This document shows, piece by piece, positions 10,355 through 37,557 of a stretch of 64,000 nucleotides of DNA (position 1 is its first letter; each line of letters opens with the position of its first letter). The DNA is taken from positions 7,626,802 through 7,690,801 of the forward strand of contig NC_045145.1 in assembly GCF_008831285.2 (NCBI RefSeq). Direction: 5' to 3'. The notes under the pieces are model-generated. The model did no database searches. It saw only the letters and a program-made list of their open reading frames with translations, and had not been told where the DNA came from. Both the position numbers and the translations under genes were made by a program. Origin of the DNA: Nymphaea colorata (lineage: Eukaryota; Streptophyta; Magnoliopsida; Nymphaeales; Nymphaeaceae).

Positions 10355-10407
10355 TGTAAAAAGCGAACTGGCGCTTTTCGTGCATAAATCCGGCCCCCCT
10401 TTATAAC

Positions 10408-10419
10408 TGGTATCAGAGC
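10408..10419 (+). promoter_or_regulatory. tRNA-Met primer-binding site of the viral copy
   Basis: TGGTATCAGAGC is complementary to the 3' end of plant initiator tRNA-Met and primes minus-strand synthesis in caulimovirids and many plant retrotransposons. No LTR end (CA) abuts it. It follows directly on the block that also ends the viral intergenic region at 31353, which fits a pararetrovirus rather than an LTR element. Confidence 0.85.
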
Positions 10420-11842
10420 CTAGTACGCTCTTGGTCTTGTAAGTATGTTTTGTCTTTAATGTCAGTTTTTATGTGTGTTTAAAGTTTTTTTTCGTGTTTC
10501 GCTTATAAGCCGAACGAGAAAGTCTCTTCCCCGGAAGCATGTATCTTTACATATGCCTGCATAATCTGTTGTTATGAATCTTTGTGTTTTATGTTGAAAG
10601 TTCTGGCCCTAGCCAGGATCTATGCATAGGAACCATGCTTTATAAGAAAGAACCTGCTGTAACATGTTTTGTTCATGATCTGATTCCCGTGTTTTTGAGT
10701 TCTTTATTCTTTGGACGAGCCACTATGTAAATCCTTTAAAACCAAAAGGCTATTGTGGAAAAGAAGTACCCATGAGGCGAGGAGGCCGTTTAGGAGAAAA
10801 ATAGTAGACAAACGGTGAGGTTTGAATGGGATAACAAGGTGTCGCACATGGTGTTCTATGAAAAGAGAATATAACAAGTTTTCGAAATTGGGGGAATCAT
10901 ACCATAAGCTTACCATGTTTTAGTTTGTTCTTTTTTATAATAGATGTGTTATCTGTTCGTAGAACCCTGTTCCTGTGAAAAGAATTTTTCCAACCTAAAA
11001 CTAAAGACTCGTAAACAGAGTGTGAAGTTGTATGCTTGATACATAGGACTGTGGGATAAAAAGAGATGAGTACATAGTAGGCTCAAGAACCTTTTGATTT
11101 CGAAAAACTGTAGCCTTAAGAACCCTTTCATTTCAGCAAAATGTGTTTTTCAAAAAATCCAAAAATATTTACTAGCAGTTTAATTAGTTTACTGAATTTT
11201 CTTTCGTATTATTATATGCATAACATAGAATATTTGAATCCTAAAATATACCCAAAACATAAGACCCGAAAAACTAGTAAACTTTACAGACCTTTATGAG
11301 TGATAAAGAAGATATTTACATACAAAGTCTGAAAGAAACAAGAACCTACTACCCCGATGCAGAAGGACTAACCAGATACGATCCACCTAGTAGTTCTGAT
11401 AAACTTATAGTTCGCCAACTAAACCTTATAATATTATGCTGATAAAACTAAACCAAAGAATTAGCCAACTCGAACGAACCATAGGCAAAAAACCAGAACC
11501 ACAGGAAGCAAACCTAGAAGAATTAACCAAAAGACTAGACAAACTAAACATAGGAAACGGTGGGATCAAATCTACCCCTACCCCTATTCCTAAAGCTTTT
11601 TCTAGAAGATAATAGTTGTAAGACGTTCTTTTTCTAGTCTCAGACACTAATGAGATAAGGTGATATAGACGAAAATCTATTAACTAGAATAATTCGAACC
11701 CAGGGTCCAGCCCTAGAACATTAGAAGAAATAATCGATGTAAATAGAGATTTAGAAATCTACTATAATCATCAACTCTCTTTGTTAAATCCTAGAACTCT
11801 ATATAGGACAGGGACTTGGAGTGTTAACCACAGTTAGTCATA

Positions 11843-12448
11843 ATAAGCAGAGAAGAAGAAGTTTGTGTAATTACTGAACATCAAAACATTGGCATCGTTA
11901 GTCACGACAGTATTAAATAATTATTACGAAACCATAATAGATTTATCCATCTTAGTTTAATAATTATAGGAATTAAGGGTTTAGCCAGAAGAAATCTAGG
12001 AACAAAAGTATTAATCACTTTACTAGATAAGAGATGGGCAAACGATGCTAGGAAGGCCATTATAGAAAGCATGAAAATTGGTATGTCTAACAACAAAGGC
12101 ATATTTTATTGTGCACCCGATTTCTTGCTAAGCATAAGAGACCTTGAACATATTATCATAGGAATTCAAACTAAAGGATATGAAACGTTTACGGGAAAAG
12201 CTAATTTACTTGTAAATGTTGGATTCTTAGGAAAAGTAACTAATAGTAGTACTACAAAGTACAAAATCGATACTAAGGCTATAATCGAATCTATGACTAG
12301 TAAAGGTATCAGGATGATTAAGCCTATGGCTATTGATCCTGAAGAATTAGAAGACTTAGATTGGAATATTAGTAAAAATCTAGAAATAAATACTAATGTC
12401 AAAGTTCTTGAAGAAAGTTTAATGTTTTGTGAGATTTTTAGACTATAA
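11843..12448 (+). pseudogene. caulimovirid movement protein (30K superfamily), broken
   Basis: One frame runs from about 11843 to a stop at 12446-12448, interrupted by an in-frame TAA at 11918-11920. It shows the 30K movement-protein core: a hydrophobic segment ending in GIKGLARRNLG, then the conserved aspartate in LLDKRW, then IFYCAPDFLLS and KGYETF, in the order known for caulimovirid movement proteins. These proteins form tubules or gate plasmodesmata for cell-to-cell spread. Its upstream part (from about 11700) is too degraded to delimit. It lies just 5' of the coat-protein frame, the usual caulimovirid order. Confidence 0.75.
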
Positions 12449-12509: not shown

Positions 12510-12883
12510 ATGGAAGCCTTAGAAAATAATTGTATTCTACTTCCTAAGAGATTTGACTTATCAAAAGAAGATATCCTTAGACTAGAAATAAAATTAGTCG
12601 CAGAAGGAAAAATTCAAGAAGAAGAAAACCTATATATAGATCCTACGAGAAATATCAAGATAAATAGACTAGAAGATGCTTATATGCAGAAACCAATGAA
12701 CATCTCAAAAAATCTTATGGAAATAGATGCCCCAGAATCTTCCTTAGTTACTACAAGGAGATCACCACAAGCTCAACAACAACCTCAACAACAAGCACAG
12801 CCCCCGTCAACTCCACCTGTACTATTCTATTCACCTAGACAACCCCCTAGAAGACCTTATGTAGAATATAAAGAAAGAGATAC
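12510..12883 (+). pseudogene. viral polyprotein segment between movement and coat proteins
   Basis: This open frame of about 124 codons follows the movement-protein stop in a different frame. Its N-terminal half is mixed-charge. The C-terminal half is a low-complexity Gln/Pro linker (about residues 85-115), typical of spacers between caulimovirid polyprotein domains. It runs into the Tat-1 LTR at 12884, and viral coding resumes at 27784 after the duplicated GATAC. I assign no function of its own. Confidence 0.6.
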
Positions 12884-13110
12884 TGTAATCACCCCAAATT
12901 TTTCTAAAGGAATATGATGTTTTATCAAAGTGCGAAATTCAAATTTAGGCACAAGATTCAAATCCAAAATACAACTCTTAGATCCAAATTAAATCCAAAA
13001 TACTACTTTCAGATCCAAATTAAATCCAAAATACTACTTTCAGATCAAAATTAAATCCAAAATACTACTTTCAAATCCAAAACCCAAGTTCAGATCCAAA
13101 TCGATCATTT

Positions 13111-13545
13111 AAGACTAATTTGCCATTCCTTTTGACCAAAAAAACCTCCTTTTAAAGGATAATTTTAGTCTTTTTTGGTGGACAAGACCAATTTGCCCTA
13201 CCTTTTGACAAAAAAACCTCCTTTTAGAGGGTAATTTTAGTCTTTTTAGGTGGACAAGACCCATTTGCCCATCCTTTTGACAAAAAAACCTCCTTTTAGA
13301 GGGTAATTTTAGTCTTTTTAGGTGGACAAGACCCATTTGCCATTCCTTTTGACCAAAGAACCTCCTTTTAGAGGGTAATGTTAGTCTTTTTGGGTGGACA
13401 AGACTCATTTGCCATTCCTTTTGACCAAAGAACCTCCTTTGACAAGGTAATTTTAGTCTTTTTGAGTAGACAAGATACCCCATCTGTCCTTCCTTTTGAC
13501 CAAAAAATCTCCTTTTGGAGGGTGATTTTAGTCTTTTTAGGTAAA
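13111..13545 (+). repeat. 72-bp tandem array in Tat-1 5' LTR
   Basis: Six units with a period of 72-74 bp start near 13121, 13194, 13266, 13338, 13410 and 13484. Each contains CCTTTTGAC(C)AAA, AACCTCCTTTTAGAGG and a GGTAATTTTAGTC core. The array lies just upstream of the TATA-like box. Minus-strand open frames over it are repeat artefacts. Confidence 0.92.
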
Positions 13546-13580
13546 AAAAATTCAAATTTTGAGTTTTGGCTCCAAAATCC

Positions 13581-13590
13581 TATATAAATA
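13581..13590 (+). promoter_or_regulatory. TATA-like box of Tat-1 5' LTR
   Basis: CCTATATAAATACCCC lies downstream of the 72-bp array in a GC-skewed setting and has the classic plant TATA form. It probably sets the start of the element's genomic RNA. The corresponding segment is deleted from the 3' LTR. Confidence 0.55.
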
Positions 13591-13839
13591 CCCCCCATAT
13601 CCCCCCTTTGGGCAAGAAGAAACTCTAGTGTATTCTCACTTGAAGACTTAGAGTTTCTCTTAAGCTCTCTCTCTCTCCCTCTTCCTCTCTCCATATTCCT
13701 CTCCAACTTGAAGCAAACTACAACCCTCTTGGAGGCATCATCTTGGAGCTTCACTCAAAGGGGATTTCAAGTGAAGGTGTTTATCTTCCTTAGGTCATTT
13801 CTCATTAGAGGTATATAATCATCATCCCTTTCATTTTTT

Positions 13840-14800
13840 TTTTTTTCTCTCTCATCTTAATCTCCCCATGGCGAAAGGAGATAGCACTCAACCTTTTTTT
13901 GGAGACAAGAGGCTATGCTCAAGTGCACCGGAAGAGTGAGAAGATGAGATGATATTTTATTTTATGATTAAATCATGTTCTTTCAAGTATTCTTGTTGTT
14001 GTTATTTTTCATTAATATGTTCTTATTATTATGCTACTTCTTTTTCTTGAACATAGTCTTGTTGATTGTTTTCATTTTCTCTTCTCATCTTCATCTCCCC
14101 ATCTCTCCATGACCAAAAGAGATAGCACTCAGCCTCTTTTTAGAGACAAGAGGCTGTGCTCAAGTGCACCGAGAGCATGAGAAGATGGGATGATATTTTA
14201 TTTTATGATCAAATCATGCTCTTTCAAGTATTCTTGTTGTTGTTGTTCTCTCCCTTCATGAATATATTCTTGTTATTATTGTTATTTCCTTTCTTCAATA
14301 TAGTCTTGTTCTTGTTATTTTCTTTTCTCTCTTTCTCCTCTCCCCATGGCCAAAGGAGATAGCACTCAATCTCTTTTTAGAGACAAGAGGCTATGCTCAA
14401 GTGCATTGGGAGCATGGAAGGATGAGATGATTTTTCATTTTGTGATTGAATCATGCTTTATCTTTTATTAAATATGGTATTGTTTTTCTTTCTATAATTT
14501 CTCCTCATCTTCATCTCCCTATGGCTAAAGGAGGTAGCACTCAATCTCTTTTTAGAGACAAGAGGCTATGCTCAAGTGCACCGGGAGCATAGAAAGATGA
14601 GATGATCTTTCATTTTAATCATGTTCTTTGTTTTCATTAATACATTATTGTTGTTCTTTTGCTTCATCTTATTTTCCTCTATTCCTTATTTCCCCATGGC
14701 CAAAGGAGATAGCTCTCAATCTCTATTTTAGAGTCAAGAGGCTATACTCAAGTGCACCGGGAACATGAGAAGATGAGGTGACATCATTTCATAGTTACAT
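13840..14800 (+). repeat. five-fold ~175-245-bp repeat in Tat-1 5' LTR
   Basis: Five copies start with CTCCCCATGG-like words near 13862, 14094, 14340, 14514 and 14690. Each continues with GGAGATAGCACTCAA, GACAAGAGGCTATGCTCAAG and TGCACCGGGA. Spacing shrinks from about 245 to 175 bp by loss of T-rich spacer. The whole block is absent from the 3' LTR. Confidence 0.88.
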
Positions 14801-16402
14801 CATGTCCTCCCTCCTAATTGAACCTTGCACTTTCCACCATCCTTTTTCTCTCTTTCCTTCCTTGAATGTTGTCTATATATTATCCATGCATAGTTGCTTG
14901 ATTTGCTACTTATATGTGAATGTATGGTGGGAATGAGAGTTTGGTTTGGGAACTCTTTATTTTTATATTAATTTTTGAGGTTGGGACTTGTCCAACCCGG
15001 GATATACCCTCACGAAAATATACATGTTAATATGCATTTGCATGTCATTTTGTGCTAGTTTCCTTCTTAATCATCCCATTAGGAACCCTAACGAGTGTCT
15101 CGTTATGTTGCTTGTTTTCTTCCATACCCAACGGTGGAAGAAATATATCCCTTACAACAAACTAAATAATAACATTCTATGCTTATATAAATCTTATTTT
15201 CCAAAACATTTTCAAAAGGAACCTTCTAACATGGCCTTAGGGACTTAGCTTAGACTCTTGCATGAGTCCAAGCTCCTCTCCGGCCCAAATTAAACTTGAA
15301 GTTGGTAATTTTAAGTTGTTCCTTGATTTCTAATCTTGTGAAGGTATGGATGTATACACATGTTATATACATCTATGCCAACATGATAACCCCCATCTTT
15401 CTCTCTCTATGCTTTTACTTTCCATTTTATAAATTTTCATATGTGCATGAATACGTATGTACATGTGCTCCATTTCCTCTCTTTCAAATATTTATTCCTC
15501 TTTTCATGACAAATATCTTCTCTTATAAAATGTCTCATACCCATATATACGTATGGTATCTTTCTTTTCCTCTAAAATCTCTATTTCTCTTCAAATCAAT
15601 ACATCTTTTTCTCTTAAGCTTTCATATATGTGTATATGTGATGGTATGTACACATGTATGCTTGTCTTTCTCTATCTCTCTCTTTCTTTTCATAAGAGTG
15701 TTTTATCTCTTGTATTCTTTTTAACATTCTCCTCTCACGAACTTTCTATTTGCCAACTTCATTAAGACCACAAACAAAGTAATGACCCAATATTGGAATC
15801 ATGCTTGATGGTCTACAATTACTATCCCTTTTCAACAACTTTTCCTTCTTATATACAATAATTATAACAACGAAATCTTAGATATATGTTGTGGTAGGAA
15901 CAACTTTAGATGAATGTTGTGGTAGGAATGTTTTACTTATGATCACAAGCATCTCTCCAAAAGAACTTAAGCAAGAAGGGATGGAGCTCTAGGTAGGTGG
16001 TAACCGAATTAGAGCAAAATCTCAAACCTACTTAAAGTCTTAAGAGAACACCAAAGTAATTTCAAAATGATTTCACAAGTTTTTCAAATGATATTTACTA
16101 GTTACACTTTTTCCTCAAATCATTTAACATTTTCAAGCAACTCTTCAAGAACCTTTTGAAAAGTTTGAAACTTCAAACTTTCAATATTTTCTACACCGCA
16201 TATAGAATCAAAAAGATGTTTAAGTTAAAACGAAATGCATCAATGATAAACATAGCCCTTGGGTTGATTACCCCCGGTAAAGGCACTGGGAACGGTCGAT
16301 CCTCGTACCGACGGGTGAGTCCCTTTCTTTCCTCTTTCAAAACAAAAACCTCATTTTTCTGGAGCACTCCAAAACCAATGAAAATTTTGGGATGCAAACA
16401 GA

Positions 16403-16422
16403 TGGCAACCGTGATGGGACCC
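16403..16422 (+). promoter_or_regulatory. Tat-1 primer-binding site
   Basis: TGGCAACCGTGATGGGA starts 2 nt after the LTR end. It resembles the complement of a tRNA-Arg 3' end (TGGCGACC...GTGGGA) but is not perfect, so the tRNA identity is tentative. Its position is what marks it as the primer site. Confidence 0.55.
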
Positions 16423-17201
16423 GTCATCGTTTGGCTATGATTATAATTGATGCATTTTCACTAATTTGAACATCTCATATATTGCCAAGGATAAAGTATG
16501 TCGCCTATTTTGGCATCGACCCCATTAGCATTTCATTGAATTGTTTGGTGATTGTGATTGTTTTCTTGCACATAGGACTAATTGAGGAGGATCAATCATG
16601 TTCACACATATCTATGATCACTTACCACACTTCTCAATTTAGGAGTTGTTTGAAAACCATGTTTGCTCTTATATTTTAATCTTCAAACTTAAGCAACATT
16701 GCATTAGAGACAACTCATTTTATATGATTTCTCGTATTTCAAAATTCCTCATACCTATTTGTCCCGGTCATCATGTTGCCAGGCTTGGTCTTTGGTGGTG
16801 GCACAAGACTAAGCCTTACAACTAGACCACACCTTGGGCGGGAAAGCCCCCTCGTTAGTACCATGAGTGGTAATTTATGGTATATGGACGAGTGATCATG
16901 AAGAAGTTGATGAACTCTACCCTTAGTTGCCTAAGGAAGAATCTATGCTCGTACTAAGCCATTTGGCTAAGGTATATAAGCATAACTTGACATCGGATTA
17001 TCGAGATACAAAATTATCTCAATTAGGTTCCTATACCCAATTTTCTAAAAAAAAAAAGAAAATTATTTCATGATAGATGTTGATGTGCGTGAAACCTTGT
17101 GTGATGATTTACAACCTCATTCCACACATCTACCTCATATTGTCTTTGTCAACCTAGTCAATGTTTTCCACTAATTTAATCTTTATCTTTTAGAGTCATC
17201 A
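16423..17201 (+). other. Tat-1 leader, no gene seen
   Basis: This AT-rich stretch between the primer site and the first ORF carries no recognisable coding region. It corresponds to the untranslated leader. Confidence 0.6.
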
Positions 17202-18475
17202 TTGAAGATGTATTCTTTTCAACATGGTGTCACATTCCCTTATGATTACATCCTCTTTGGGGAAGGTCCCGAACGGTCCACCTACATTTCTATTGAGTCT
17301 AAACCTTTGGCTCCCGAATGGTATCAGACTTGGCATCCCACCTTCTCTCGGATGTTTCCTTCTTACTTTGAAGAATGTGGGCTAGATATAGTGGCAGCTA
17401 GAGGAATGCAATTAGTTGATGAAAATTTGGTACATGCAATCGCCGAGCGTTGGAACCCAAAGACCTCCTCTTTTTGGTTTTCATGGAGAGAAATGACAAT
17501 ATTACTAGATGAATTTGCCGAAATACTAGACCTCCCTACCCCAACTTGTGACCCAAATGATCTATTGGAAAAACAATTCCTTATGAACCCAACCAAGGTC
17601 AATGCAAATGACCTCATTGCTCACTTTACTGGACGAAAAACTTGGCTTTTAGTAGAAAACCATGAAAATCAAAGCATCAACATGAAAAATTTGTATGAAG
17701 AAAAGCCAAGAAAATCAAAGCATCAACATGAAAAATTTGTATGAAGAATTTAGAACCTATGTTGAACCTTCTACCCTACCTCGAAAAGCCATAGGGAGAA
17801 TTAAACATTGTATGATGCTATGCACAGTAGGAGTGACCTTTTTTACCGATGGAAGTGACCTTTTAGATGTCCGTATTACCCAACTTTTTCGAGTATGGGG
17901 GCATAGAGGGACCCGACACTTGTCAGTAGCAATGACAGCCTTAGCCTTCCTTTACCGAGGACTCACCCGCTTTACCATTGGAGGTATCGACTTCATAGAA
18001 AGATGCACATATGCTTTACAATTGTGGTTCCTCAAGCATGCGGGACCCCAAGCCAGTCTATTCAGAAACACTGATGGATCATTGACAACCTTGGAGCAAT
18101 ACCATCATTTGATCGAGCAATTGAATGAAGGAGAGATCATTTGGGATTATTGTGATCGTCGGCAGAGCCTACCCCGATACACTCACCATCATCATGGGCG
18201 TACCACACTCTTGGGGTCCTTACTTCATAGTTGATTATTGTGCTGATAGATGTATGAGACAGTTTTCTCAAAGGCAAAAGATGGTCTTTGTGCATGCACC
18301 AATTGGAGCTATTCCTGAATTCGACCTTAGTTCTCCTCAATGGACGGCATTGTTTGCAGTAGCTCGACAAGAATGGAAAACACATATATCATACACTTGG
18401 TTCATAGGCCCAGTGGTGAAGAAGGAATATGCTGAGTGGTGGGATGCCAATCGACCACCATCCATCCTTCCCTAA
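17202..18475 (+). pseudogene. plant mobile domain (PMD) ORF of Tat-1, frameshifted
   Basis: An extra ORF lies ahead of gag. The first segment (17202-17744) has ERWNPKTSSFWFSWREMTILLDEFAEIL, and the last (18125-18475) has RCMRQFSQRQKMVFVHAPIG before a Trp-rich end. Both are hallmarks of the aminotransferase-like plant mobile domain, found in transposons and in a few host proteins of the MAIN/MAIL type. The frame changes twice: at a 46-bp tandem duplication (units at 17664 and 17710) and near 18190. The protein's role in the element is unknown. Related Tat/Ogre elements also carry an ORF upstream of gag. Confidence 0.75.
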
Positions 18476-18620
18476 AAAGTTTTATGTTGTCAACTTTATT
18501 ACTATCTTTGGATGTAACTTTTAAAACTTGTAATGCAATATGAACCTTCATTTTGTCACCATTTCCCTTCAATAACTCTATTTTCTTGTGTCATAAGGTG
18601 AATACTTGAAAGCCAAGAAG

Positions 18621-20011
18621 ATGGTTGAAACTAGATCGCAAGCTAAGCAAGCTCATCAGAACGAGGCTTCATCTTCTGAACTCCAGCCAGAAACACTTGG
18701 CCTACCAGCAATCGAGCCAGAAGCTTACCATATGTTTTGTTTGTTCATGGAGTGATTCATGAAAGAGCAAGAAGAGCAAAAGGCCGTGATGGTTACTCTA
18801 GAACCTGAGAATGAAAAGGCTGCCAAGCAGAAAAGAAAGAAGAAGAAGAACAAGTCCTCTTCTACATATCAGGATGAAGATTATTTGAGTTCGAATTCTG
18901 CAATTAGTAAGGAAGAAAAACCCGAACTATTTCCTCTCAAAAAGAAAAAGACAACAAAGAAAAGCAAAAAGAGATAAGAAATTATGACAGAAAGCAGCTC
19001 ACCTAGTCCTATCACCACTGAAAGTTCGGAAGAGAAGCCCAAAAGGAAGAGAAAGTCTACCAAGAAAGGCAAAAAGACCAAGAAGTACATCCCTAGCAGT
19101 AGCTCAAACAGTGAGAGTTTTGAAGGAAAAGTAAAGGAGATCAAGGGCAAGAAGAAAAAGACCAAGCCAGAATTGGTCGAATCAAGTGATGATGAAAGTA
19201 CGACTAAGCGCAGATTCTATGAAATGGAGAAAAGAATGAACAATCTTGAGCTTAGGGAGAAGGGGAAACATTCATATTCATGTGCGGACTACTACCTTGG
19301 CATTGAAGGGGGCGAAGACGTGAAAGGCCTGCCCAGAGAATTCATCAGGTATGATGGAACCACTTGCCCACACGTTCATTTTTCAACATTTTTCAATGAT
19401 TGCTACAAAATTTGGACAAATAACAGAGCTTTGTTCCGATATTTTCCAAGAAGTCTTGAAGGCATTGCCGCACAATGGTACAAAGAAAATGTCAATCCAA
19501 TCGAGCAGAAGGAGTTTGACAAATTGATTAACATGTTTGTTGAAAGATTTGAACAAAATGCTCCCATGACTCCAACCCTCAGTACCATTTGCAGTCTTCG
19601 TCAGAAACAGGGAGAAAAGGCTCGAGAATTCATTCAAAAATGGAGAATTCAATGCAATAAGATGAAGGAACCCATTTCTAAGACACAAGCCTTGTCACTC
19701 ATTAGGAAAAATCTTACTCAACCCTTGAAAAGTCTCATCCGCAACGCCTCAGTCAAAACTTTTGCTGAATTGATTGAACAAGCAAACTCGATAGAAGAAA
19801 GGATTGAGGAAGGAGATTTTGATGGAATTATTGCTCCTAAGTACAAAGAAGATGGAAAGAAAGGAGGAAATACACAGCTGCCTGCACACTTCATAGCCAA
19901 TGTTGACATTAGAAAGGACCATGGCAATAGCTACAAGCATGACAAGGAAGTCAGTTTCAAGAAGAACACGCAGTCTCTCAAAGGCGACGATGAAAGGAAA
20001 AACAAACACCT
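18621..20011 (+). pseudogene. Tat-1 gag, two in-frame stops, 3' end replaced
   Basis: Gag starts at MVETRSQ (18621), the same start word as Tat-2. It has a Lys/Ser-rich, low-complexity N-terminus and then the retrotransposon gag core, including ALFRYFPRSLEGIAAQWY and LSLIRKNLTQPL. In-frame stops lie at 18753 (TGA) and 18975 (TAA), and the rest of the frame is open. Near 20012 the gag homology ends, and sequence of a host gene follows in other frames. The zinc-knuckle-like CKFH...H...C segment seen in Tat-2 gag is missing. Gag would form the virus-like particle. Confidence 0.85.
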
Positions 20012-20593
20012 TTTGGGCAAAGGACCAATAAGTTTGTTTTGCAGTTTGAATTCAATCCTCCAAAAGTCGAGAATGGTAGAAAAGAAGGGGAAATTGATGA
20101 TTCAGAAGATGATGTCATTAGAAGAGTTAAGCTATAAAAAGGTGTTCATTGCATGTCCGAGAATTGGGGACAAAGCCAGGTTGCAGATTCATGTATGATA
20201 GGATTAAGGATCGGGTAAAAGGCATATGCTTGCACTTGTCTCTTTTCTTTTGTAGGTTTACCAGCAGTAGTTGTCCTCGCCAAGAGAGTATATCTTATTT
20301 TCCCTTCGTAATAGTTTGAATCTCTTGAAGGCCGGATCAGGAGGCTAGCAACAGCTCTTCTAGCTTCTGGAAGTTTTGATGAAATAGTTGATGCAACCTC
20401 TGCCTCACAGGTAATTCCCTCCATATATTTATTAACTGACGTGTCTCTTTATCTGTTGTAAGCTTGTAGCCAATTGAGGTAATTTGACACAATCTGATAT
20501 CAATTAATTTTAGAATAACTTGTTTAGTGTTGGAATGGTCTGCTGCGATGGTGATGGTTGTCTAAATGAGAAATCAATCATATTACAGTGCAG
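20012..20593 (+). pseudogene. captured host fragment: DNA polymerase alpha subunit B-like
   Basis: Three exon-like blocks, separated by GT-AG introns, sit between gag and protease. Block 1 (about 20012-20214) includes KFVLQFEFNPPKVE, an acidic stretch with DDVIRRV and, after a 1-nt shift, KPGCRFMYDRIKDR. Block 2 (20315-20410) reads FESLEGRIRRLATALLASGS and ends DATSASQ. Block 3 (20514-20593) reads VGMVCCDGDGCLNEKSIILQ. In this order the motifs match the middle of the plant DNA polymerase alpha accessory subunit (POLA2), recalled from family knowledge. Introns run 20215-20314 and 20411-20513, with a donor at 20594. In the intact gene the product helps the polymerase alpha-primase complex start DNA synthesis. 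Here it is a transduplicated, non-functional piece. Confidence 0.72.
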
Positions 20594-20673
20594 GTATGTA
20601 ACTGTTTTCTGCTCTTTTTCTCACCTTGGGTTGCAGATCTAGAAAATTTTCATCCTCAATAATCAAGTACTAA

Positions 20674-21855
20674 AGATTTGTCCTCAAAAATATTATTCAA
20701 GACTTCATCAACAAAGATCTCAAGATTTGTGATGATACAACCCATGAGATGTTAAGGAATCCATTCCCTGACCACGAAAAGATAGCAGTGGCCATGATCA
20801 CTACAGGCACTCCACTTCCGTACCATCCACAAGAGTACATTCGACCTTATATTGGGAGCAGTTCACACAAAGTCATGGTGGTAGACCAAGGTAAGGAACC
20901 TCTGGATTTCATTCCTATGATGAATGGTAGGATAGAAAGTTTGTCCAAGAAACTTTCCATGATTCCAAAGACTTTTATCTTACAAGGCGACGAATCATCA
21001 GATGACTCCCCAGATGAAGATCCATGCTATTTGGAAGAGCATATGGATGAGGGAGACTTGGTTCAAGCTTCTAAAAATCAGTCAATTACCTTCTTAGAAA
21101 AAGACCTCTCAAAATGGGGATATTTCCATGAAGATGCTCTTTACATCGTCGTTCAGGTCAATGGGATGATGGTGCCACATGTGTTGATTGAAGGAGGAAG
21201 TGGTCTGAATATTTGTCTTGATCTCACGGCCAAAACATTGGGGTTTCGTAAAGACAAATATCACTCAAATGATATCAAGATCTACGGATATGATGGTCGA
21301 GGCATGAACTGCAAAGGTACTCTCAATATGAACGTGACCATCAAAAATACTAGCCATCACATTGTGTTCCATGTGGTAGGTGTGCCACCATCATATAACT
21401 TACTTTTAGGACGACCCTGGGTCCACCAAATACGAGGAGTCTCATCCACTCTTCATCAATGCCTCAAATGAAATTTTGGCACATCAGTCATCACCGTACG
21501 TGCTGATGATCCAACCGAAAGGCAAGTGCAACCAATGCACCCTAGGCCAATTGATCCAGTGGATGTACCCATCATAAGAACAACAAAGGACAGACCTTTG
21601 GAAGAATGGATGCAGAACATAAAGATAGGCGAATCATCTGAAAGTGCCCATATTGTTTTGAGCAATCATGCAAGTTACCAAGAACATCATTTATGTGTTC
21701 ATTTCACGAAAAATCCTAAAGGTTTTCAGTTGCTTCTGAAAGGCGGCTACCGTCCATTCACTGGCCTTGAAAAAAATGAAGATGGCATCTTGCAGCCGAT
21801 TAGCATCCCTTTTCAGATGAACATGAGAGGACTGGGATATCATGAAAGAATTTGA
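20674..21855 (+). pseudogene. Tat-1 protease with G-patch-like tail, one in-frame stop
   Basis: The frame picks up after the captured fragment with LKNIIQDFINKD, matching the end of Tat-2 gag. It reads through the aspartic-protease region: VLIEGGSGLNIC around the active site and LLGRPWVH near the end. The catalytic Asp of the usual DGGS (present in Tat-2 as DGGAT) is Glu here, so the enzyme is probably dead. A TGA at 21469 stands where Tat-2 has Trp. The tail GGYRPFTGLEKNEDGILQP resembles a G-patch, as in other Tat proteases. It ends at a TGA (21853-21855). Confidence 0.85.
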
Positions 21856-26120: not shown

Positions 26121-26200
26121 ATTTCTATGAAAATGTCTTGTTTGAAAAATTTGTGGCGTTTATCTTTGTCACTAAGCACGACCAACACCGGCTTATTAAC

Positions 26201-27783: not shown

Positions 27784-28984
27784 GATACCTATACATCTAA
27801 GGGTAAAAGAATGCCTTTAGAAACTATGGACAAAAAATATTTAATAAATGAAGGTAGAATTTTGAACATAAGTACTCATGATCCGCAATTATTACCCTCA
27901 GTAATAAACATGTGGTCTCAACGAGTTGCTAGGAAATGAGACAGGATGAATCAATAAATGTGGACAACAGAAGAAATGTACAATTGGGTAGAAAAATTTT
28001 CAGGAGAAACCGCTAGAGCATCTTGGGAAGCATACAAAAGAGAACACCCACAAGACTTGCAAAGAGAAATTCTTCTAGCAAAAAATATTTATAACTTTAC
28101 CAATAAAGTACAATTACTCTTACTAGGATACCAGCCAAATACAGGGTATGATAAACAACAGCAAGACTCGATCAGAAAACTAGAACAACTTCAAATTAAA
28201 GACTGGCGCTATATTAAACCTTTTTTACAAAACTTCTTTTATTATAGTTCCTTAGCAGACTGTTTTTATAATAAAGAGATAGGAGAAAGCCTATTTCTTA
28301 AGTTACCAGATCCCTTGGGTTCTCAGATTCATAAAAAATATAAAGAAAAAGAGATGATGCTCCACCTAGATAACATTAGTATAAGGATTCAATTTATTAT
28401 TGAAGAATTAGTAAAGAAATGTACTAAGATAACCATTTCCAAATAGTTAAAAGGAGAATATAACTTTTGCAAACAAATTTATACACCACAAAGATATGAT
28501 AGAGAACCTAGACACCCAAAAACTTATAAGACAAGAGATAAAGATAAACGACGAAGATACTACCTTCGTAAATCTAATGCTAGAAAACCCTATCTTGACA
28601 AACATAGACATGTTAGAAAATATAATACCCAAAGAGATTATAAAAACAAGTTAACATGCTTTACTTGTGGCAGTCCTGAACATTTAGCTAGAGACTGTTC
28701 AAAACGAAAAAATCTTTACAATAAAGCTTCAATCCTTGTTGACTGTGTAAATGAGGATGTAGTAGCTTTAGATGAATGTATTAGCAACACTGAAAGCATC
28801 CATAGCATTGTATCTATAGAATAATCATTTCATGCTCCTAATTCTTCTGATGAAGAACCTTGTAGTGATAGTTGCATGAGCCATAACATACTCGAATTAA
28901 GTAGAAAATATGGTGAAGAATTTCAAGAAAAATTTTCAACTTTAACCAACCTACAATACATGTTAGATAATATGAATAATGACT
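27784..28984 (+). pseudogene. caulimovirid coat protein region of part A, broken
   Basis: Viral coding resumes after the duplicated GATAC. A single frame runs to about 28984 with in-frame stops at about 27937, 27955, 28444 and 28822. The middle part (27958-28443) is the capsid core, with many aromatic and charged residues. A strongly basic Arg/Lys/Tyr stretch follows, then a CX2CX4HX4C zinc knuckle (28657-28698, CFTCGSPEHLARDC), the arrangement of caulimovirid coat proteins. An acidic tail ends it. No protease or polymerase follows here; the next unit is ORF2. Confidence 0.82.
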
Positions 28985-29048: not shown

Positions 29049-29119
29049 GTAGACATTAGCCATGGTAGACAATGTAAAATACATTCTTTTATCTAACATA
29101 AAATTTTGTTTTAGGAAAC
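29049..29119 (+). promoter_or_regulatory. conserved block before ORF2 (part A)
   Basis: GTAGACATTAGCCATGGT begins a noncoding block. It is nearly repeated at 33630 in part B (GTAGACATTAGTCACGGT) and ends in a T-rich stretch plus TTTTAG just before the ORF2 start codon. Conservation between otherwise diverged parts suggests a function in ORF2 expression, perhaps as a 3' splice site. This is inferred. Confidence 0.5.
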
Positions 29120-30424
29120 ATGGCCTCTTTTAGCCAAACCCACCTTGTCAAAATAGACCCAGATCTAGGCCTACCCATATTACCCCCAGACTCCAATCTT
29201 GCATTCTTAACCTTCCCTAGTATGAATCTTGACCATATTTTATTAGATAACCTTTGACACAATAGAAAAAACCCAACCTTCTCTAAAATCCTTAGCATCC
29301 TAGCAACCTACCTTAGCATCAAAAATACTCAAAACCAGATCACACAAAGCTAACTCAAGCTCTATCTTGAGCTTACCCCAAACCCTTCTTTTCTGAACAT
29401 AGCCCAACAATTAGAGAATACTAGTACAGAGCTAACTCTCAGTAAAGAGAAATTGGAAGACATGATTGAAAAATTGAAGCAGACAACAGCCGAAGTAGAA
29501 TTACTGAAGGAACAGTGGGAAAAAGAAATGAGAAAACAGTGAGAAGAAAAAAGAGAAAGTTTTCCCCCAGAAATAGATGTAGCAAGAGAACAAGTCTACA
29601 AAATAATCCTTCAGAAGCAAAAGCAGGAACAAGGACGTATTCATGAGATCTTAAGATTTCTTGCCAGAAACCTTGGATTACAAAAGAAAGGATTGAAGTT
29701 CTGTTTCGTCAAATACCAACAAAGAAGACATGCTGATAACTCTTTTTGCGAGTGTCATAAAGGATTTGGGATTATCTTGGTAAGCATTAATCTGAAAAGA
29801 TGGACAGACATAGAAATGTTTGACACGCAGATTTTCTTGAAAAACTTAATGGAACTAGGATATATAAGAAGGATTATCGTAACAGCAGTGGAGCAGACTC
29901 ATATGCTGGGCTTCAATTGGTGTTTGGCTTATATAGTAGAACAGACTTTCAGGAATAACTGGGTTACAAAAGGATTTGTAAACCTATATATCAATACAAT
30001 CTCTCCAACATATGACTATCCATGTGATGCAAAACATGAAATAATCATTAGGACATACTCTTTTGCCAGCCCTCTGCAAGCCCCTCTACCTCTTACAAAC
30101 ATACCAGAAGCCAATCCAGACGAATGACATGATGAGCTTACGAGATGGAGAGAATTCAAGATGTCCCAACAATGGAGAACCTGGAATCACCTCATTTCAG
30201 AAGACAGAAATACAAGGATATACACCTATGACACTGAACATATAAAAATAGTTATACCATTCCAAAACCATATTTGTATTAAGCCAGAATTACGTGAACA
30301 TTTTGCCCAAACCAATGCAGGATGGCAAGTTCATGAATTCGGTGATAATGGTGCTGATGGTGCTGCAAAAACTCTTCAATTTGATCAACATTCAGATAGC
30401 GAAGAAGAGACAGATCCAACATGA
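29120..30424 (+). pseudogene. viral ORF2 of part A, in-frame stops only
   Basis: One reading frame of 435 codons runs from ATG 29120 to TGA 30422-30424. It is broken only by in-frame stops (TGA at 29255 and others near 29350, 29540 and 30125) and has no frameshift. The middle is predicted coiled coil (heptads with Leu/Glu/Lys, about residues 95-175). After it come a short conserved motif, NSFCECHKGFGII (about 29730), and a C-terminal half rich in aromatic residues with an acidic end. A homologous but diverged ORF lies in part B. A second ORF of unknown function downstream of the polyprotein is a feature of florendoviruses. I know no function for it. Confidence 0.7.
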
Positions 30425-31353
30425 CAGTAGACATTCTTTGAGAGAAAAGTAGGGACGAAGCTGCTGAGTCCTTAACCCTGCAGCCTAACGTTTGTCAAGA
30501 CCGGAAAAACTTGGCCCTTGTAAGTTATGGTTAAACTTTTCATGGGTACAGTGCTTCCCATGTAAAACGTAAGCATCATCCGTATGAAAAGAAACGTGAT
30601 AAACTTCTCTTTGGGAAAATCCCCCAAGTTAAACATAGGATTTGCGTTGTAGATCATCTCCTCAAAATCTACCCTGGAAAAACCCTCTAGGATAAATATG
30701 GGTTTTACGTTTGTAAATTTTCGGCATAAAAATTTACCCTGTGACGCACCCCACAGGATAAGTTCTGGGTCACATCCTGAAGCAAATCATTTCGAGGCGC
30801 TTCTAGAAGATCGTTGTAGTTGCCGACCTTCTTTATGTAAATAAAGCAACGTTGCGTGAATAAAGAAGAAGGAATGTTACACGTGTCAAAAAAGTGACCA
30901 CGTGGCCTCCCATTGAAGAAAAGACGAAGCAGTTACTGTAGCAGTTATTGTAGCACTTCGGCGGACACTGTAGCGCTCTGTAGCACTTTTTGGTTTTTTG
31001 GACACGTTCGACTGCCACCTCATCCAGCACACGACAGCTGTCCACCTTCGAGTTCCTTCGAGTGTAACTGCTTTTGTTTGTTTGTGTTTAGCTTGTTCGG
31101 GAAGGAATCCTATTCCTTTTCCATATTGTAATTTCTTTTCAAGTCCGGTGCCTATAAAGGCACCACCCCAGCGTCTGTATCCATCATCTTTCAACACATC
31201 CATCCATCCACCTCCGAGTGCTTGCTTTCGAGTGCTTGAGTCCTCTCCCTTCCTCGCTCTCCTTCCTTTTCTTCTCTACTCCCCTTTTCTCCCATGCTAT
31301 TGTAAAAAGTGAACCGGTGCTTTTCGTGCATAAATCCGGCTCCCTCTTATAAC
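30425..31353 (+). promoter_or_regulatory. viral intergenic region of part A with promoter
   Basis: This noncoding region follows ORF2. Its first 181 nt (30446-30626) are about 96% identical to 37375-37556. Two AATAAA words lie at 30840 and 30859. Four TGTAGC words (30937, 30949, 30969, 30979) lie 170-220 nt upstream of a TATA box in CCTATAAAGG (31153-31158), a typical pararetroviral promoter layout. The region ends with the 53-nt block (31301-31353) that at the left end of part A directly precedes the primer site. Here the primer site is missing, and part B begins. Confidence 0.7.
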
Positions 31354-31373
31354 CTACTATAACCTTTCCCAAT

Positions 31374-33400
31374 ATGAAGGCTGACCATAAGGAACAAAGA
31401 AGAACAACTATTAGAATTCGTTGTATATTCAAGATAGAAAAGTGGAAGTTAGAAATAGATGCCTTAATAGACATAGGGTGTAGTGCCTCGGTGTTAGATA
31501 AAGCATTGGTTCCACTAGAATATCATAGAAGCCTAGACCCTGTCTTACAACTTTGGGCAGAACAAATGGATGGATCCTTACACAAATATGATGAAGAAAT
31601 ATGCAAATATAAAATAGCTTTTAGACTCTCTGAAGAAGAACATACTGCCTACCAACCAGGGCCTAAGACATCATTAGACATATGCAATTACATGATAGTA
31701 CGAAATGCATTATAGGACTAAATTTCATTCTAGAAAATATGGCCGGGTGTGTCATAACCAGGACAGACCTTTCTTTTCTTACCAACCAAGTTTCTTGGGT
31801 CCCAGAATGGAAATTATATGGAAATAAAGACTGTAAATATAAAATTCCAGGAGCCTGCAAAGAAAAAATTGACCTAACCTACACAGAAGAAGAAGATGGC
31901 CTAGAAGAATTAGAAATAGACCCTGATTATAACTTTATAAATATACAAAAAATTTATAATAAATTAGAAACAGGTTGTACAGAAATAGATGACTTGCTCA
32001 GAATATTAGAAAAGGACGAAATCTTAGGAGAAATACCTACTAAACATTGGGATCGTAATAAAATAGAATGTATCCTACAGATAAAAGATCCAGGATTTAC
32101 TATTTTCAACAAAAAGATAAATGCTATGAATGACAATATTAAAGATTTTGAAACACATATAAATGAATTGTTGAAACTAGGAGTCATAAGGAGAAGCATA
32201 AGCTCTCACAGAAGTCCTGCCTTAATTGTTAATAAACATAGTGAACAAGTTCGTGGAAAATCAAGAATGGTCATAGACTATAGGCGACTTAATGATAATA
32301 CCATAGAAGACTCTTATGATATTCCTGATATAACTAAATTAATCAATAGTATACAACACAGTAAAATATTTAGTAAATTTGACTGCAAATCTGGATTCTG
32401 GCAAATAAAAATGCATACGGATAGTATTCAATAGACTGCATTTACTTGTCCCTTAGGAAGCTTTGAATGGTTAGTCATGCCTTTTAGCTTAAAAAATGCT
32501 CCTGCTATATTCCAACGAAAAATGGATATGATATTTGGCCAATATAGAGGATTTGTGTGTATTTATATAGATGATATTCTTGTTCATAGTAAAACACAAC
32601 CAGATCATATAGGCCACTTAAAAATAGTGTTAGGAGAATTTCTACGTAATGGAATTATAATCAGTAGTAAAAAGGCACAATTCTTTAGAAAACACATAGA
32701 ATATTTAGGTATAGAGATTGGTGATGGAAAAGTCAAACTACAACCACATATAGCAACTAAAGCTTTGGAATTTGAGATACATGATATTAAAAGCCTTCAA
32801 CGGTTTTTAGGATTAGTAAACTATGCTCGACCATTTATTAAAGACTTAGGAAAAATGGTTGGCCCATTATATAGTAAACTCGTCCAAACTGGGGTTAAAT
32901 CTTTTCATACAGAAGATATGAAACAAATAGAAAAAGTCAACGAAGCAATAAAGTACTTACCAGAAATGTATCTACCCCTAGATTCAGATTTTTTAATAAT
33001 TGAAACTGATGGATGTATTAACGGGTGGGAAGCAGTGTTAAAAAGAAAACCCAATAAGTATGCTTCCAAAGTAACTGAAGTCGTCTGCAGATATAGCAGC
33101 GGCCAGTACAAAGAAAAGGGACTCTCTAGTAGTATAGATCAGGAAATTCTTGTAGTAATATATGGGCTCAATAGTTTTCGCTTATTTTTGCTCAACAAAA
33201 AAGAAATAATAGTTAGGATCGATTGTGATGCTATTGTAAAGTTTTATGAAAATAAAGATTCTAAAAGAATAAGTCAGAGAAGATGGATATCCTTTAAAGA
33301 TACCCTTATAAACCAAAATTACAAAGTAACATTTGAACACATAAAAGGAGAAAACAATCGTCCAGCCGATATGCTAAGTAGACTTCTAAAAGATGAATAG
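31374..33400 (+). pseudogene. caulimovirid protease, reverse transcriptase and RNase H (part B), broken
   Basis: The start is ATG 31374. The aspartic protease lies first, with ALIDIGCSAS at the active site (the usual third residue Thr is Ile). A frameshift near 31710 precedes the linker and RT. RT shows RMVIDYRRLN, FDCKSGFWQIKM, MPFSLKNAPAIFQ and the catalytic YIDDILVHS. An in-frame TAG stands at 32432-32434. RNase H follows (IIETDGCINGW near 33000) and ends at a TAG (33398-33400). FDCKSGFWQ is typical of Caulimoviridae rather than of Ty3 elements. No movement or coat protein precedes it: the frame starts 20 nt after the end of the part A intergenic block. The breaks make it inactive. Confidence 0.9.
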
Positions 33401-33629: not shown

Positions 33630-33698
33630 GTAGACATTAGTCACGGTTGACAAAATAGAATGCATTGTTTCACTTAAATTTTTTTATTACAGGACCAG
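33630..33698 (+). promoter_or_regulatory. conserved block before ORF2 (part B)
   Basis: This is the counterpart of 29049-29119: it starts GTAGACATTAGTCACGGT and ends in a T-rich run with TTATTACAG (acceptor-like) before the ATG at 33699. Its presence in both parts, after different upstream genes, is the observation of interest. Confidence 0.5.
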
Positions 33699-34577
33699 AT
33701 GGTCTCTACAAACCAGTTGCCCCTTGACCTAGACCTATGATTACCAATCTTTCCACCTCATTCAAACCTGGTCTTTCGAACTTGTACAGGCCTCATCCTT
33801 GATATAAAAGATCATGTCCTTCTAGACAATATTTGACAAAACAAAAAAAATCCCTCATACCCAAAAATCCTTTCTTTATTAGCCAGCCATCTCAACTTGA
33901 AGAACAGAAAACTTCAGTCCAAAACTCTACCAGAACTCTCCATGGATCATATACCTCTTCAACCTCAAAGCTTGAATGCTTATCTTACTTTAGAAAGAAG
34001 CCTAAAAGCAGCCCAAGCAGAAATAAGTTGGCGGAAAAAGGAAAAAGAAGAGCTAAATGAAAAAATACAAACTCTCGAATCAGAGAATAGACTCCTTAGG
34101 GAACATGTTGAAGAGGAAATTAAAAAATTAGGAGAAAAAAGAGAAACAGTTCCCCTAAACATCCCTTTAGTCAAGGAACAGATCTATCATTTGGTGATGA
34201 AGGCAAAAAGAAAAGAACAAGTTGACATGCAGAATCTATTAAGGACCATGGCACGACATTCAAAGAAGAGAAAGCCTGGTTTGGAATTTACTTTGCTGAA
34301 ACAAAGACACAACTCACATGAAGAAAACTCTTTCTGTGAATGTGAACAAGGATTTTCCATTATACAAGCCACTCTTAACCTTAGAAAGTGGCAGGACCAA
34401 GAGATTCAGGGGATAAAACTTTCCCCCAAAACTCTTTTGGAGTAAGGATTTTTAAAACGAGTACTGGTTACAAAAGAAGAGCAGGTAAAACATCTTGATT
34501 TTCATTGGCGATTAGCATACACATTAAGAAGAATGTTTAAACTTGGAAGCATAAAGCCTTATGGCTATGTTAATTTA

Positions 34578-36863
34578 GGGCCCGTTTGATGGGCCGGAAA
34601 AATACTGTAGCGCAAGAAGGAAATTTCAAATTTCAAAAATTTTCCGATTCATCAAACGCGGAAAAATATTTTTGCCCGTTAAACCTGAAAACGGAAATTT
34701 TTTTCCACCGCGAGAGGTGGAAATATCTTTCGAGAAATATTTTTTTGCCCGTTAGGGCTTGCCTCGTCCTGCTGCTGCTGCGTTTTTCTCCTTCCCTCTC
34801 CCTCTCTCCTCCTCGTCACAGAGACCGTCTCTCCTCCGCTGGACAGCCGTGATCCTCCAGCCATCCGCCAGTGAGGCTCCACCGTCTCTGTCCCATTATT
34901 TCCCCTTTGAAACGGTGAGCCTCCACCGTCTCTGTCCCATTATTTTCCCTTTGAAACGGTGAGCCTCCACCGTCTACATGTCTGCTCTCTTTATTTGCCA
35001 CTAGTTATGCTCTTCTTTTGCCGCTTGTTTTATTATTTGATAAATTTTACTTGTTTGACATAAATGTAGCAGACCGAGGGTTTAACTCTGTGCTATTTGC
35101 AGGAAATTTGTTGTGAAATAAAATTTGTAGCTTAGTAATCTATTGGCAATAGGTTTCTAAAGTTTGGTTTTCCCTTGCATTGGCAATGCGGTGTTTTTTT
35201 TTGGGGAGGATTTTGAAGCCTGTGTGATTTTTATGGTTGAAAGCCTGTTATATTGGTTATAAATAAAGTCCAGCGCCAAGATTTTGGTTCTCGTTCGTGT
35301 TGATATGCAACTTGGTGATTTGTTTTGGGATGATTTATGAAGAAATTTATAATTTTTATGGTATTATGGGTTGTACAGTCCATTTTCTGATTACTGGATT
35401 TGGCTTGGTGGTGGTTATATTGCTGTTATATCATGGCTTGGAGTCTTGTTGTGTAAGAGACTAGAGCTGTATTTTCCTTCCAATTGGGAATATTCTTAGA
35501 TGGGGTATTTTAGATACTGTGGTTCTGAATCTTTGATCAGCATTCGTGTTTGGGTTTGCTCAAGTACATTGATGTTATGTCCATGAACAAACTGAATCAG
35601 TATTTTGGTTGTTAGTTTGTCATCATCTCAGTCACTTAAAAGTCTGATTTTCCTTCATTTGGGAAATCATACCTGTTTTGACCTCTGTCGGAGAGAAAAA
35701 GATTTGTCCAGCGAGCTGAAAGTGAAGATCGAGGACCTGAAAGCCAAAATAGAATCCCTTGGGAACCAGAAGTTTGAGCTGAAGAGCAACCATGTAGAAA
35801 TGCAATCACTGACAACTTCTCTCAAGAAAAGCATCGAGCCCTTGGTGCAGAGGTGGAGGAGAAGTAGCAACAGATAGAAAACCTCAGCAGGAAAAAAGGC
35901 CTCTCGAGGAAAATGTATATGCAACTGATAGCATTGAGAGAAATCTTGAACACAAAGAACATGAGATCCATGAACATAATTGACCTCTTGCTGAACCTTG
36001 ATTTGTTTAGTTACATGCTAAATAGATTCAAGTTTAGATGCTGATATCGAATTTAAGTTGCTTAAATTATCCTTTATGACTACTTTATTGTATCATGTAT
36101 GTTTGAGTTGCTTGATGAAAGAATCAATTAGGATTACAAGCTTGGTTAAAATATGACTAAAAATGACAAATTATGTCATTCCATAGAGATTGACTTGTCA
36201 AGAACTAGATATTTAAGGATTGAGACCGAAATTTAATGAAGGTTGCTTTCATTTCAAGGCAAGCAGTTGTAATGAACAGACAAATTTATCGGAATATTGA
36301 TTTTTTGTGTAATTGTATAAGGAAGAAAGCGATGAAAGAAAAGTAAGAAATCAACAAGAAACCAGAAGGAACCAAGTTTAGCCTAATTTACAAATTAAAT
36401 AGGTTGAATTGTGATGGTTTTGTGTGGTCTGATATTATATGTTTGATTATGCAAATCTTGATTGAATTATGTGAATTAAACTAAGAACCTGCTCATTGAG
36501 TCATTAATTGCTTCAGTTGTAAAAGTGGCACCCTTATTTTGATTAAGGTGACTTCACATTTTCTATGGTAGACATTTTCTTATGCAGGTCATTCATTTGT
36601 CTTCATGTCGTTATTTTCTTATGCATGTTCTTCATTTGTAAATCCGGACAAATGTTTCCATATCATCAAACTAAGAATTAAATTTCTGGAAATATATTTC
36701 TGTACCATCAAACTCAGAAATATAGAATTGGAAACATATTTCTGAGTCATCACACACACACCAAAATTGGAATCGGAAAAATTTTTCTCATTCCATTTTT
36801 TCATTTCCCAGCTTTCCAGCAATATATTTCCAGAAATTTTTTTTCAGGCCATCAAACGGCCCC
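34578..36863. mobile_element. PIF/Harbinger-like TIR element (2286 bp), probably non-autonomous
   Basis: The left end GGGCCCGTTTGATGG and right end CCATCAAACGGCCCC are inverted repeats with one mismatch in 15. TTA stands on both sides (34575-34577 and 36864-36866), the target duplication typical of PIF/Harbinger elements. Subterminal regions repeat ATCAAAC and GGAAATAT-type words in both orientations. No transposase is visible. The interior holds a coiled-coil-coding piece at 35680-35930. The insertion is inside viral ORF2. Confidence 0.8.
35605..35935 (+). pseudogene. coiled-coil fragment inside the TIR element
   Basis: An open frame reads REKDLSSELKVKIEDLKAKI and continues for about 30 more Leu/Lys/Glu-rich residues, a clear heptad pattern. 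It then loses the frame near 35840, where a second frame continues with coiled-coil composition. It looks like part of a host gene picked up by the transposon (Pack-type). I do not recognise the source gene. Confidence 0.45.
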
Positions 36864-37374
36864 TTAGACATTGAAACTATTCCTCCTTCGTATGAATACC
36901 CTTATGACGCGAAACATGAGATCACAATCAACATCTATACTTCACAATTTTCCCTGCAAACACGTATTCCTAAAGAAACTCTTTGAACTTTTCTCATTAC
37001 TAAAGATGTATATTCACAACTAAAGCGTTGGAGAGCTTATACCATTGTTGTAGACCTACATGCCCGGTGGACAAGATCTACTTGTATGGTAGCTGAAGAT
37101 AAAAATACATGCATCTTTCTAGCAGATACTTGGCTTACTGAGAAATTTTACATTCCTTTCCAAAGTATCTTACAGATAAACCCTGGCCTCTGTGAACACT
37201 TCTGCCAAATCTATGACAGTAGTCCTGCAGAATGGACCGGTAATGACCAAAATGTCGAAGCAGTCATTCACAGAGACGACAATGAAGATGAGTTGAATGT
37301 TGGTGATGAAGGAGAATGAGATAATAATGAACAATACGAGGAAGAAATTATAGAAGAAATTGGCAATAACTAGA

Positions 37375-37557
37375 AAAAAGTAGGGACGAAGCTGCTGAGT
37401 CCTTAACCCTGCAGCCTAACGTTTGTCAAGACTGGAAAAACTTGGCCCTTGTAAGTTATGATTAAACTTTTCATGGGTACAGTGCTTCCCATGTAAAACG
37501 TAAGCATCATCCGTTTGAGAAAAAACGTGATAAACTTCTCTTTGGGAAAATCCACCA
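37375..37557 (+). other. viral intergenic region of part B, truncated
   Basis: This stretch is about 96% identical to 30446-30626 (6-7 differences in ~181 nt by eye). It starts AGTAGGGACGAAGCTG, and the similarity stops abruptly at about 37557. This is the right border of the viral locus as far as I can follow it; no promoter or terminal block is present. Confidence 0.8.

Follow-up and report, generated by a model that had tools for sequence, protein, structure and literature searches.

Two complementary caulimovirid units in tandem in the Nymphaea colorata genome: a probable compound integration of a bipartite pararetrovirus

Introduction

The window analyzed here, a 64,000-nucleotide stretch of the Nymphaea colorata genome (C8:7626802-7690801; source genome of 407.8 Mb in 783 contigs), contains a viral element at 10354-37558. 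The element consists of two caulimovirid units, A and B, placed head to tail, which a sequence-only reading of the window had regarded as a possible fossil of a bipartite genome. The locus raises the question of whether the units are complementary components of one virus or deleted remains of viruses that carried all genes in one line. Bipartite organization has already been reported for endogenous florendoviruses, together with compound A+B loci, by Geering 2014 (PMC4241990). According to the relevant parts of that paper and of a 2023 review (PMC10377300), no living member of the Caulimoviridae or of the order as a whole is known to have a divided genome, and the fossil examples are termed putative; the review also cites a beet bipartite case.

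We consider the locus to be a compound integration of two components of an extinct, probably obligately bipartite pararetrovirus (Caulimoviridae, florendovirus-like), with a probability of about 0.85. The layouts of both units recur in the genome, their first open reading frames (ORF1) do not overlap in content, their second ones (ORF2) form separate clades, a common region is shared and exchanged between the components, and the A and B lineages match.

Gene content of the two units in the window

All viral features of the window lie on the plus strand. At its left terminus (10354-10407), unit A has a 54-nt repeat of the last part of the intergenic region (IR), 88.9% identical to 31300-31353. 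An exact tRNA-Met primer-binding motif follows directly (10408-10420) and opens the leader common to both components (10408-11262), which has a donor-like GTAAGT at 10439. The first ATG with at least 30 codons is at 11296. ORF1 of unit A includes a movement protein (MP) piece at 11921-12445 (PF01107, 1.1e-10), an open piece between the movement and coat proteins at 12510-12883 that reaches a nested retrotransposon, and, beyond that, the coat protein (CP) with its CCHC zinc knuckle at 27791-28821. The CP domain covers 27958-28443 (PF22909, 1e-21) and the knuckle 28447-28821 (PF00098, 4.9e-7). An acceptor-like site and ORF2A occupy 29050-30424, with the exon start at 29115, the ATG at 29120, and open pieces at 29543-30124 and 30128-30421. 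The IR of unit A (30441-31353) contains a TATA box at 31153, and its last base directly precedes the primer-site position.

Unit B begins at 31354, inside ORF1 and just ahead of the protease domain. The 5'-truncated protease (PR) piece at 31354-31712 matched PF21024 at 5e-6, with 27.7 bits against a cut-off of 28.2; the corresponding match in copy L014 was above the cut-off (3.4e-7). Reverse transcriptase (RT) and RNase H (RH) follow at 31667-33397 (PF00078, PF17917). An acceptor-like site and ORF2B lie at 33630-37319 (exon start 33693, ATG 33699), split by an insert at 34578-36863, with open pieces at 33837-34442, 36726-36983, and 36987-37316. The element ends with the first 187 nt of the IR of B (37372-37558), 96.3% identical to 30441-30627.

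These matches bear out the gene content first assigned to each part: MP, CP, ORF2A, and a full IR in A, and protease, RT, RNase H, ORF2B, and the start of the IR in B. They also agree with the statement that no ORF1 gene is shared, as MP and CP occur in A alone and protease, RT, and RNase H in B alone. No primer site follows the IR end at 31353, because B starts there. The IR that separates the parts belongs to A, as its 3' end, and not to B, since the B copy has lost its primer site, leader, and N-terminus. The claim that both components lie side by side holds for the remains of both, and the B copy is truncated at its 5' side. Window B was dropped as a complete component; fuller copies elsewhere have the leader and about 300 aa ahead of the protease. 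For four B pieces from the region ahead of and surrounding the protease, the protease itself was the sole Pfam match over the cut-off; one of these pieces also gave no PDB match.

Copies of the two layouts across the source genome

The search of the source genome, run as set beforehand, returned many A-type and many B-type loci, each with the shared IR. At least 54 IR matches were obtained; the IR search scored 40 of 142 candidates and the RT search 124 of 2769, so counts are lower bounds. The loci read comprised 20 regions of 10 kb picked by IR matches, 5 around distant IR matches, and 2 further loci with IR and RT matches.

Whole or partial A-type units were present at L010, L011, L013, L015, L017, L020, L024, L025, L031, L032, and L033 and in the window. 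Counted over the 25 IR-chosen regions plus the window, the CP zinc knuckle led to ORF2A in 12 of 13 chains having both (11 fetched chains and the window). The exception, L019, is a rearranged place where the knuckle runs into an IR copy with ORF2B beyond it. A protease after the CP or CCHC domain was found in 0 of 17 chains bearing either domain; some of these 17 are interrupted by a rearrangement or where the region stops. Unit A measured 6094 bp from primer site to primer site (L013).

B-type units were readable from the leader to RT and ORF2B at L014, L026, L031, L035, and L036 (with only the leader end in L035) and were partial at L009-L012, L016, L017, and L030. Neither MP nor CP lay between leader and protease in the six readable B units (L014, L017, L026, L031, L035, L036). 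The leaders of L014 and L031 start with the exact primer motif, and L026 had no exact match; L035 and L036 were outside the motif scan. The length of component B was estimated as about 6.2-6.6 kb from L031 and L013/L014. Compound A+B insertions were seen in the window and at L010, L013/L014, L017, L020, and L031.

Genome-wide, an MP within 0-5 kb upstream on the same strand was found for 0 of 43 RT units of the present family and for 9 of 48 units of other lineages (Fisher p 0.003). For this count, RT places of at least 60% identity were merged into the 43 units, 102 of 127 RT rows were entered with 25 weak or fragment rows left out, and all 137 MP rows were entered.

The two parts might instead be independent deletion derivatives of one-line viruses, formed at or after integration. 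One-line caulimovirids do occur in the same genome: L034 has MP, CP, CCHC, and RT in order over three overlapping frames, with an RT piece 42% identical, and nine further units are of this kind. Moreover, window B is truncated, and a 4.46-kb array without the protease and most of RT shows that deletion derivatives do arise. However, both layouts are repeated at numerous loci, distant lineages included, none of the 43 RT units has an MP upstream, and deletion of one virus cannot yield the two old clades of ORF2A and ORF2B described below. We therefore regard this origin as very improbable. One-line loci thus exist in other lineages, and no locus with MP-CP-PR-RT-RH in one line was seen in the present family among the loci read and the genome-wide RT units. 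L034 and the nine one-line units are too distant to be a direct parent.

The array itself (L021-L023, C2:32041167-32062963) is a tandem of units of about 4.46 kb, each with a leader, the last 93 aa of the RT/RNase H piece, ORF2B, and an IR; its leader is of lineage I and its ORF2B of lineage II, as defined below. It looks like an amplified defective B derivative.

Another explanation is that A and B are both satellite-like genomes dependent on a third, one-line helper virus that left no copy here. This option is named in the available text of Geering 2014 (PMC4241990), and the common regions of helpers and dependent elements are often alike. Against this, A and B together carry MP, CP, PR, RT, and RH, and no one-line unit with this IR was present in the 25 IR-chosen regions. 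A helper of this kind appears improbable.

Within a bipartite virus, the origin of the split may be traced through a cysteine pattern, C-x2-C-x11-C-x2-C-x4-C-x2-C, which occurred five times in the 329 kb searched. Four occurrences were in B copies (L012, L014, L017, L026), within the roughly 300 aa that start ORF1 of B, and one was in L034 between the knuckle and RT. Judged by the position and spacing of this pattern, B resembles a one-line ORF1 from which MP and CP have been lost, and A a one-line ORF1 ending after the knuckle.

Some other MP and RT loci were recorded. Eight listed MP loci were considered as kin of the window virus and rejected, as they belong to other lineages and none was matched by window pieces. 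Further caulimovirid RT lineages with long open frames, 41-45% identical, lie for example at C5:107335, C4:18821910, and C12:2364385; that at C4:18821910 has 1178 aa without stops, and L034, with its one-line domain order, belongs among these lineages.

ORF2 divergence and the common region

The sequence-only reading had noted two diverged ORF2 versions followed by nearly identical noncoding DNA, and the measurements agree. In the window, the ORF2A and ORF2B proteins were 38% identical over 103 residues, 53% over 36, and 36% over 66, and window ORF2A was 42% identical to the ORF2B of fuller B copies. In 60-column windows, the A/B nucleotide identity was 0.51-0.79 across ORF2 and then 0.88, 0.97, and 0.95 in the IR. 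The rise starts about 20 nt past the ORF2A stop and about 50 nt past the first ORF2B stop. An early local alignment had placed A/B homology in the ORF1 tail from 28871/33476; this was dropped, as a ten-row alignment supported homology no further 5' than about 70 nt ahead of the acceptor-like site. Pfam gave no match for the ORF2A and ORF2B pieces, ORF2A had no match in the protein database, and its predicted fold was uninformative, with a mean predicted local distance difference test score of 38.6.

At the other side of the IR, B copies matched the first 854-860 nt of a 953-nt leader query and A copies matched all 953 nt. By coordinates, sharing stops about 35 nt short of the first A ATG with at least 30 codons (11296) and about 36 nt short of the likely B start codon in L026. 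The IR and the shared leader together form a common region of about 1.77 kb.

Lineages and exchange between the components

In the ORF2 protein tree, 12 A rows and 22 B rows formed one clade each (100/100; 0 of 500 shuffles). The 34 rows had at least 90 aa and a set identity, 14 covered less than half of the columns, and the array rows were near or full duplicates. ORF2A and ORF2B are thus two old clades, and the claim that deletion of a single virus could not give both versions stands.

The common region behaved differently from ORF2. All trees used subsets of the copies, and the IR tree was made with 21 rows and then with 27. The 27-row tree (12 A, 15 B) had 8 A/B label changes vs a shuffled mean of 9.1-9.2, and a single A clade was rejected (approximately unbiased test, p 1.15e-7). 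The leader tree (10 A, 6 B) was likewise mixed, with 5 changes vs a shuffled mean of 5.0, and it showed a lineage split (100/99) with the L021 array as the sole exception. ORF2A DNA (9 rows) and ORF2B DNA (12 rows) each fell into two groups (100/100), whose members match the IR-tree groups. Lineage I comprises L009-L012, L015, L016, and L024-L026, and lineage II comprises the window, L013, L014, and L017-L023. The RT tree (7 rows) agreed with this split at 100/100, and the CP tree (11 rows) agreed except for L025. A distant pair at a single locus, L031 A and L031 B, had IRs that group together (98/93). These trees indicate that the ORF2A/ORF2B split predates the viral lineages and that the common region tracks lineage more than component. 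IRs mixed between A and B and paired by lineage are the mark of two components held together by exchange.

Exchange also reached the start of ORF2. In the lineage-I B copies L009, L011, L012, L016, and L026, an 88-nt stretch at the ORF2 start matched A at 90-91% vs 78-80% for B; this A-type patch was found at three sites, on C8 and C10. One 60-column window of L026 scored 0.91 to A vs 0.75 to lineage-II B, with B-type flanks.

Gene conversion between chromosomal copies, rather than between viral genomes, could also make the IRs alike. Local conversion would be favored by the frequent clustering of A and B copies (C8:10.83-10.87 Mb, C2:25.67-25.69 Mb, C10:3.44-3.46 Mb); a difference of only 1.8% separates the IRs of L015A and L016B, and the L031 A/B pair of lineage III also comes from one locus. 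However, the lineage grouping spans chromosomes and covers the leaders, and the A-type patch is common to lineage-I B copies at separate C8 and C10 loci. Chromosomal conversion is consequently an unlikely source of the shared IR.

Signals for expression and integration

In 18 of 18 leader matches, the GTAAGT donor lies 31 nt past the base that opens the primer site, and nearly all A and B copies have an acceptor-like site directly 5' of the ORF2 ATG. By a rough score, the splice-site ranks in the window were 114 of 63883 for the donor (tied), 203 of 4096 for the A acceptor, and 25 of 4096 for the B acceptor; at its rank, the A acceptor is not outstanding alone. No earlier report of these donor and acceptor sites was found in the searched parts of the literature. 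In the available texts, a spliced or separately transcribed ORF II RNA was suggested by Pooggin and Ryabova 2018 (PMC5902531) and leaky scanning for ORF2 by Geering 2014 (PMC4241990).

At the A/B junction of the window and in L012, the IR runs exactly up to the base that precedes the primer site. In L027, it ends within three bases of that position, and the next three bases also fit the primer site; other IR copies end elsewhere. In reverse transcription, minus-strand DNA starts at the base before the primer site. A linear molecule ending at this base may have joined other DNA, since the minus strand starts there. On the minus strand of L009, near 6330-6370, the IR end is immediately followed by about 30 A, after which come a second partial IR and a CP fragment. 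This A run might be the end of a polyadenylated RNA captured at integration.

Proposed two-component virus

In the proposed virus, component A would carry MP-CP and ORF2A, and component B the CP-PR linker, protease, RT, RNase H, and ORF2B; the IR, the primer site, and a leader stretch of about 855 nt would be common to both. The PR-RT-RH of B would act in trans on A RNA, and A would furnish the capsid and movement protein for both. ORF2 would be expressed from an RNA spliced from the leader donor to the acceptor just before the AUG, and exchange between components within one cell would keep the common region alike. At the window locus, a linear A molecule whose end coincided with the start of the minus strand would have been end-joined to a broken B molecule and the chromosome, with the gypsy element and the DNA transposon inserted afterwards.

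A more specific form of this proposal has slightly better than even chances in our estimation. The virus would have been obligately bipartite with a non-redundant split, having the structural genes on one circle and the full enzyme set, protease included, on the other; capsid maturation would then have been possible in trans only. The split would have been kept through at least three lineages by repeated homogenization of the common region of about 1.77 kb, which ends about 35 nt before each ORF1 start, and the two ORF2 paralogues, expressed from spliced RNA, would have diverged.

Several points weigh against the two-component virus. All copies seen are integrated and most are broken; co-infection and co-packaging are conjectural. 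Window B has neither primer site nor leader, and the locus alone is no proof of two complete components. A helper virus since lost retains a small probability. The RT/MP adjacency count is not exhaustive, as the MP list misses some loci (including the MP of L034) in addition to the 25 excluded RT rows, and A units were counted in the regions read. In the ORF2 tree, rows were labelled A or B according to their identity with each of the two window pieces. Taken alone, the IR lineage split is weak (78/76 with 21 rows), and the 27-row tree leaves L025 and four B rows (L018, L021, L023) in neither group. The lineages have also recombined: the L021 array joins a lineage-I leader to a lineage-II ORF2B and IR, and L025 a lineage-II CP to a lineage-I ORF2A. 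Splicing from the leader donor to the acceptor before the AUG is suggested by site conservation alone, and the final AG of the acceptor is missing in L017 A and L031 B.

Classification and comparison with known systems

The gene set is that of the Caulimoviridae, with a 30K movement protein, a CCHC-bearing coat protein, an A3 protease (just below the cut-off in the window and over it in L014), RT, and RNase H. The tRNA-Met site at 10408 fits the same family, and the sole integrase match among the scanned pieces belongs to the nested gypsy element. In a tree without a labelled florendovirus row, the RT fell outside a 21-row clade containing the badnavirus row. The protein database gave 251 RT relatives, none labelled florendovirus among the 120 listed, and 6 short CP relatives. 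IMG/VR scans with the RT piece, the CP piece, and the RT alignment confirmed no relative.

The proposed genus Florendovirus is marked by a second ORF that has no homologue among other caulimovirids, to which ORF2A and ORF2B may correspond. Its ORF1 carries MP-CP-PR-RT-RH on one molecule; here it is split over two components, as in the published bipartite members. The complementary multi-copy components with closely similar IRs and the compound A+B insertions agree with the description of bipartite florendoviruses, which includes a CP component that keeps the protease; such a component was found in none of the 17 chains. As far as the available text of PMC4241990 describes them, VvinBV, VvinDV, OsatBV, and SbicV likewise have two complementary components with IRs more than 90% alike, compound A+B insertions, sizes of 5.5-6.9 kb, a tRNA-Met primer site, and ORF2 homologues on both components, which are more diverged in grasses. 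The component letters used here are swapped relative to that paper. In its bipartite florendoviruses, the CP component has a protease too and the RT component retains MP and/or protease in some cases, whereas here the protease occurs with RT only and MP with CP only. Their ORF2 homologue on the CP component is a C-terminal polyprotein extension, unlike the present ORF2s, both of which have their own ATG after an acceptor-like site.

Homogenized IRs between complementary partners were described by Chen 2017 (PMC5491270). In the portion of that paper available, ePVCVL and ePVCVL2 of grasses are complementary non-autonomous genomes with partner-mixing IR trees and IR recombination, as here. Unlike the present components, which have no ORF1 domain in common, they share MP (95.3% nt) and both code for a protease; the common region here also includes about 855 nt of leader. 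If both ORF1s are placed in series, the order MP-CP-PR-RT-RH is that given for Petunia vein clearing virus and one-line florendoviruses (PMC4241990), which have one genome molecule rather than two. Relative to what is available of PMC4241990 and PMC5491270, the host locus, the clean split with the protease only with RT, the long common region, and the matched lineages are new.

A component split older than the lineages, combined with a lineage-shared common region, is strong evidence of long joint travel and recombination. The clean split and the cysteine motif, which places the cut between the coat protein and protease of a one-line relative, suggest an origin route that is testable in related plants.

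Later insertions and nearby repeats

Two insertions were absent from the sequence-only account. The first is a nested, non-viral Ty3/gypsy long terminal repeat (LTR) retrotransposon of 14.9 kb in unit A (12884-27785, plus strand), with LTRs and a 5-bp target duplication, GATAC. It has its own gag, RT, RNase H, and integrase zinc-binding domain, and a plant mobile domain (PF10536, 34.3 bits vs a cut-off of 34.9) lies ahead of gag. A G-patch piece was also seen, and the LTRs of the element are unequal in length with 72-bp tandem units. The Kimura two-parameter (K2P) divergence of the LTRs was 0.029 over 1099 sites and 0.058 over 254 sites. Because the element sits inside unit A with this divergence, integration of the virus is older than the gypsy insertion. 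At plant rates, the LTR divergence points to an age on the scale of one to a few million years. The second, a later DNA-transposon-like insert (34578-36863, plus strand), has inverted ends and a TTA duplication, both read by eye.

Outside the viral element, 42516-44579 and 51114-53246 are direct repeats with 87% identity and may be the LTRs of a second element; a 100-base N gap lies at 53249. On the minus strand, 57778-61050 is a 72.6% identical relative of the gypsy pol stretch at 22223-25497.

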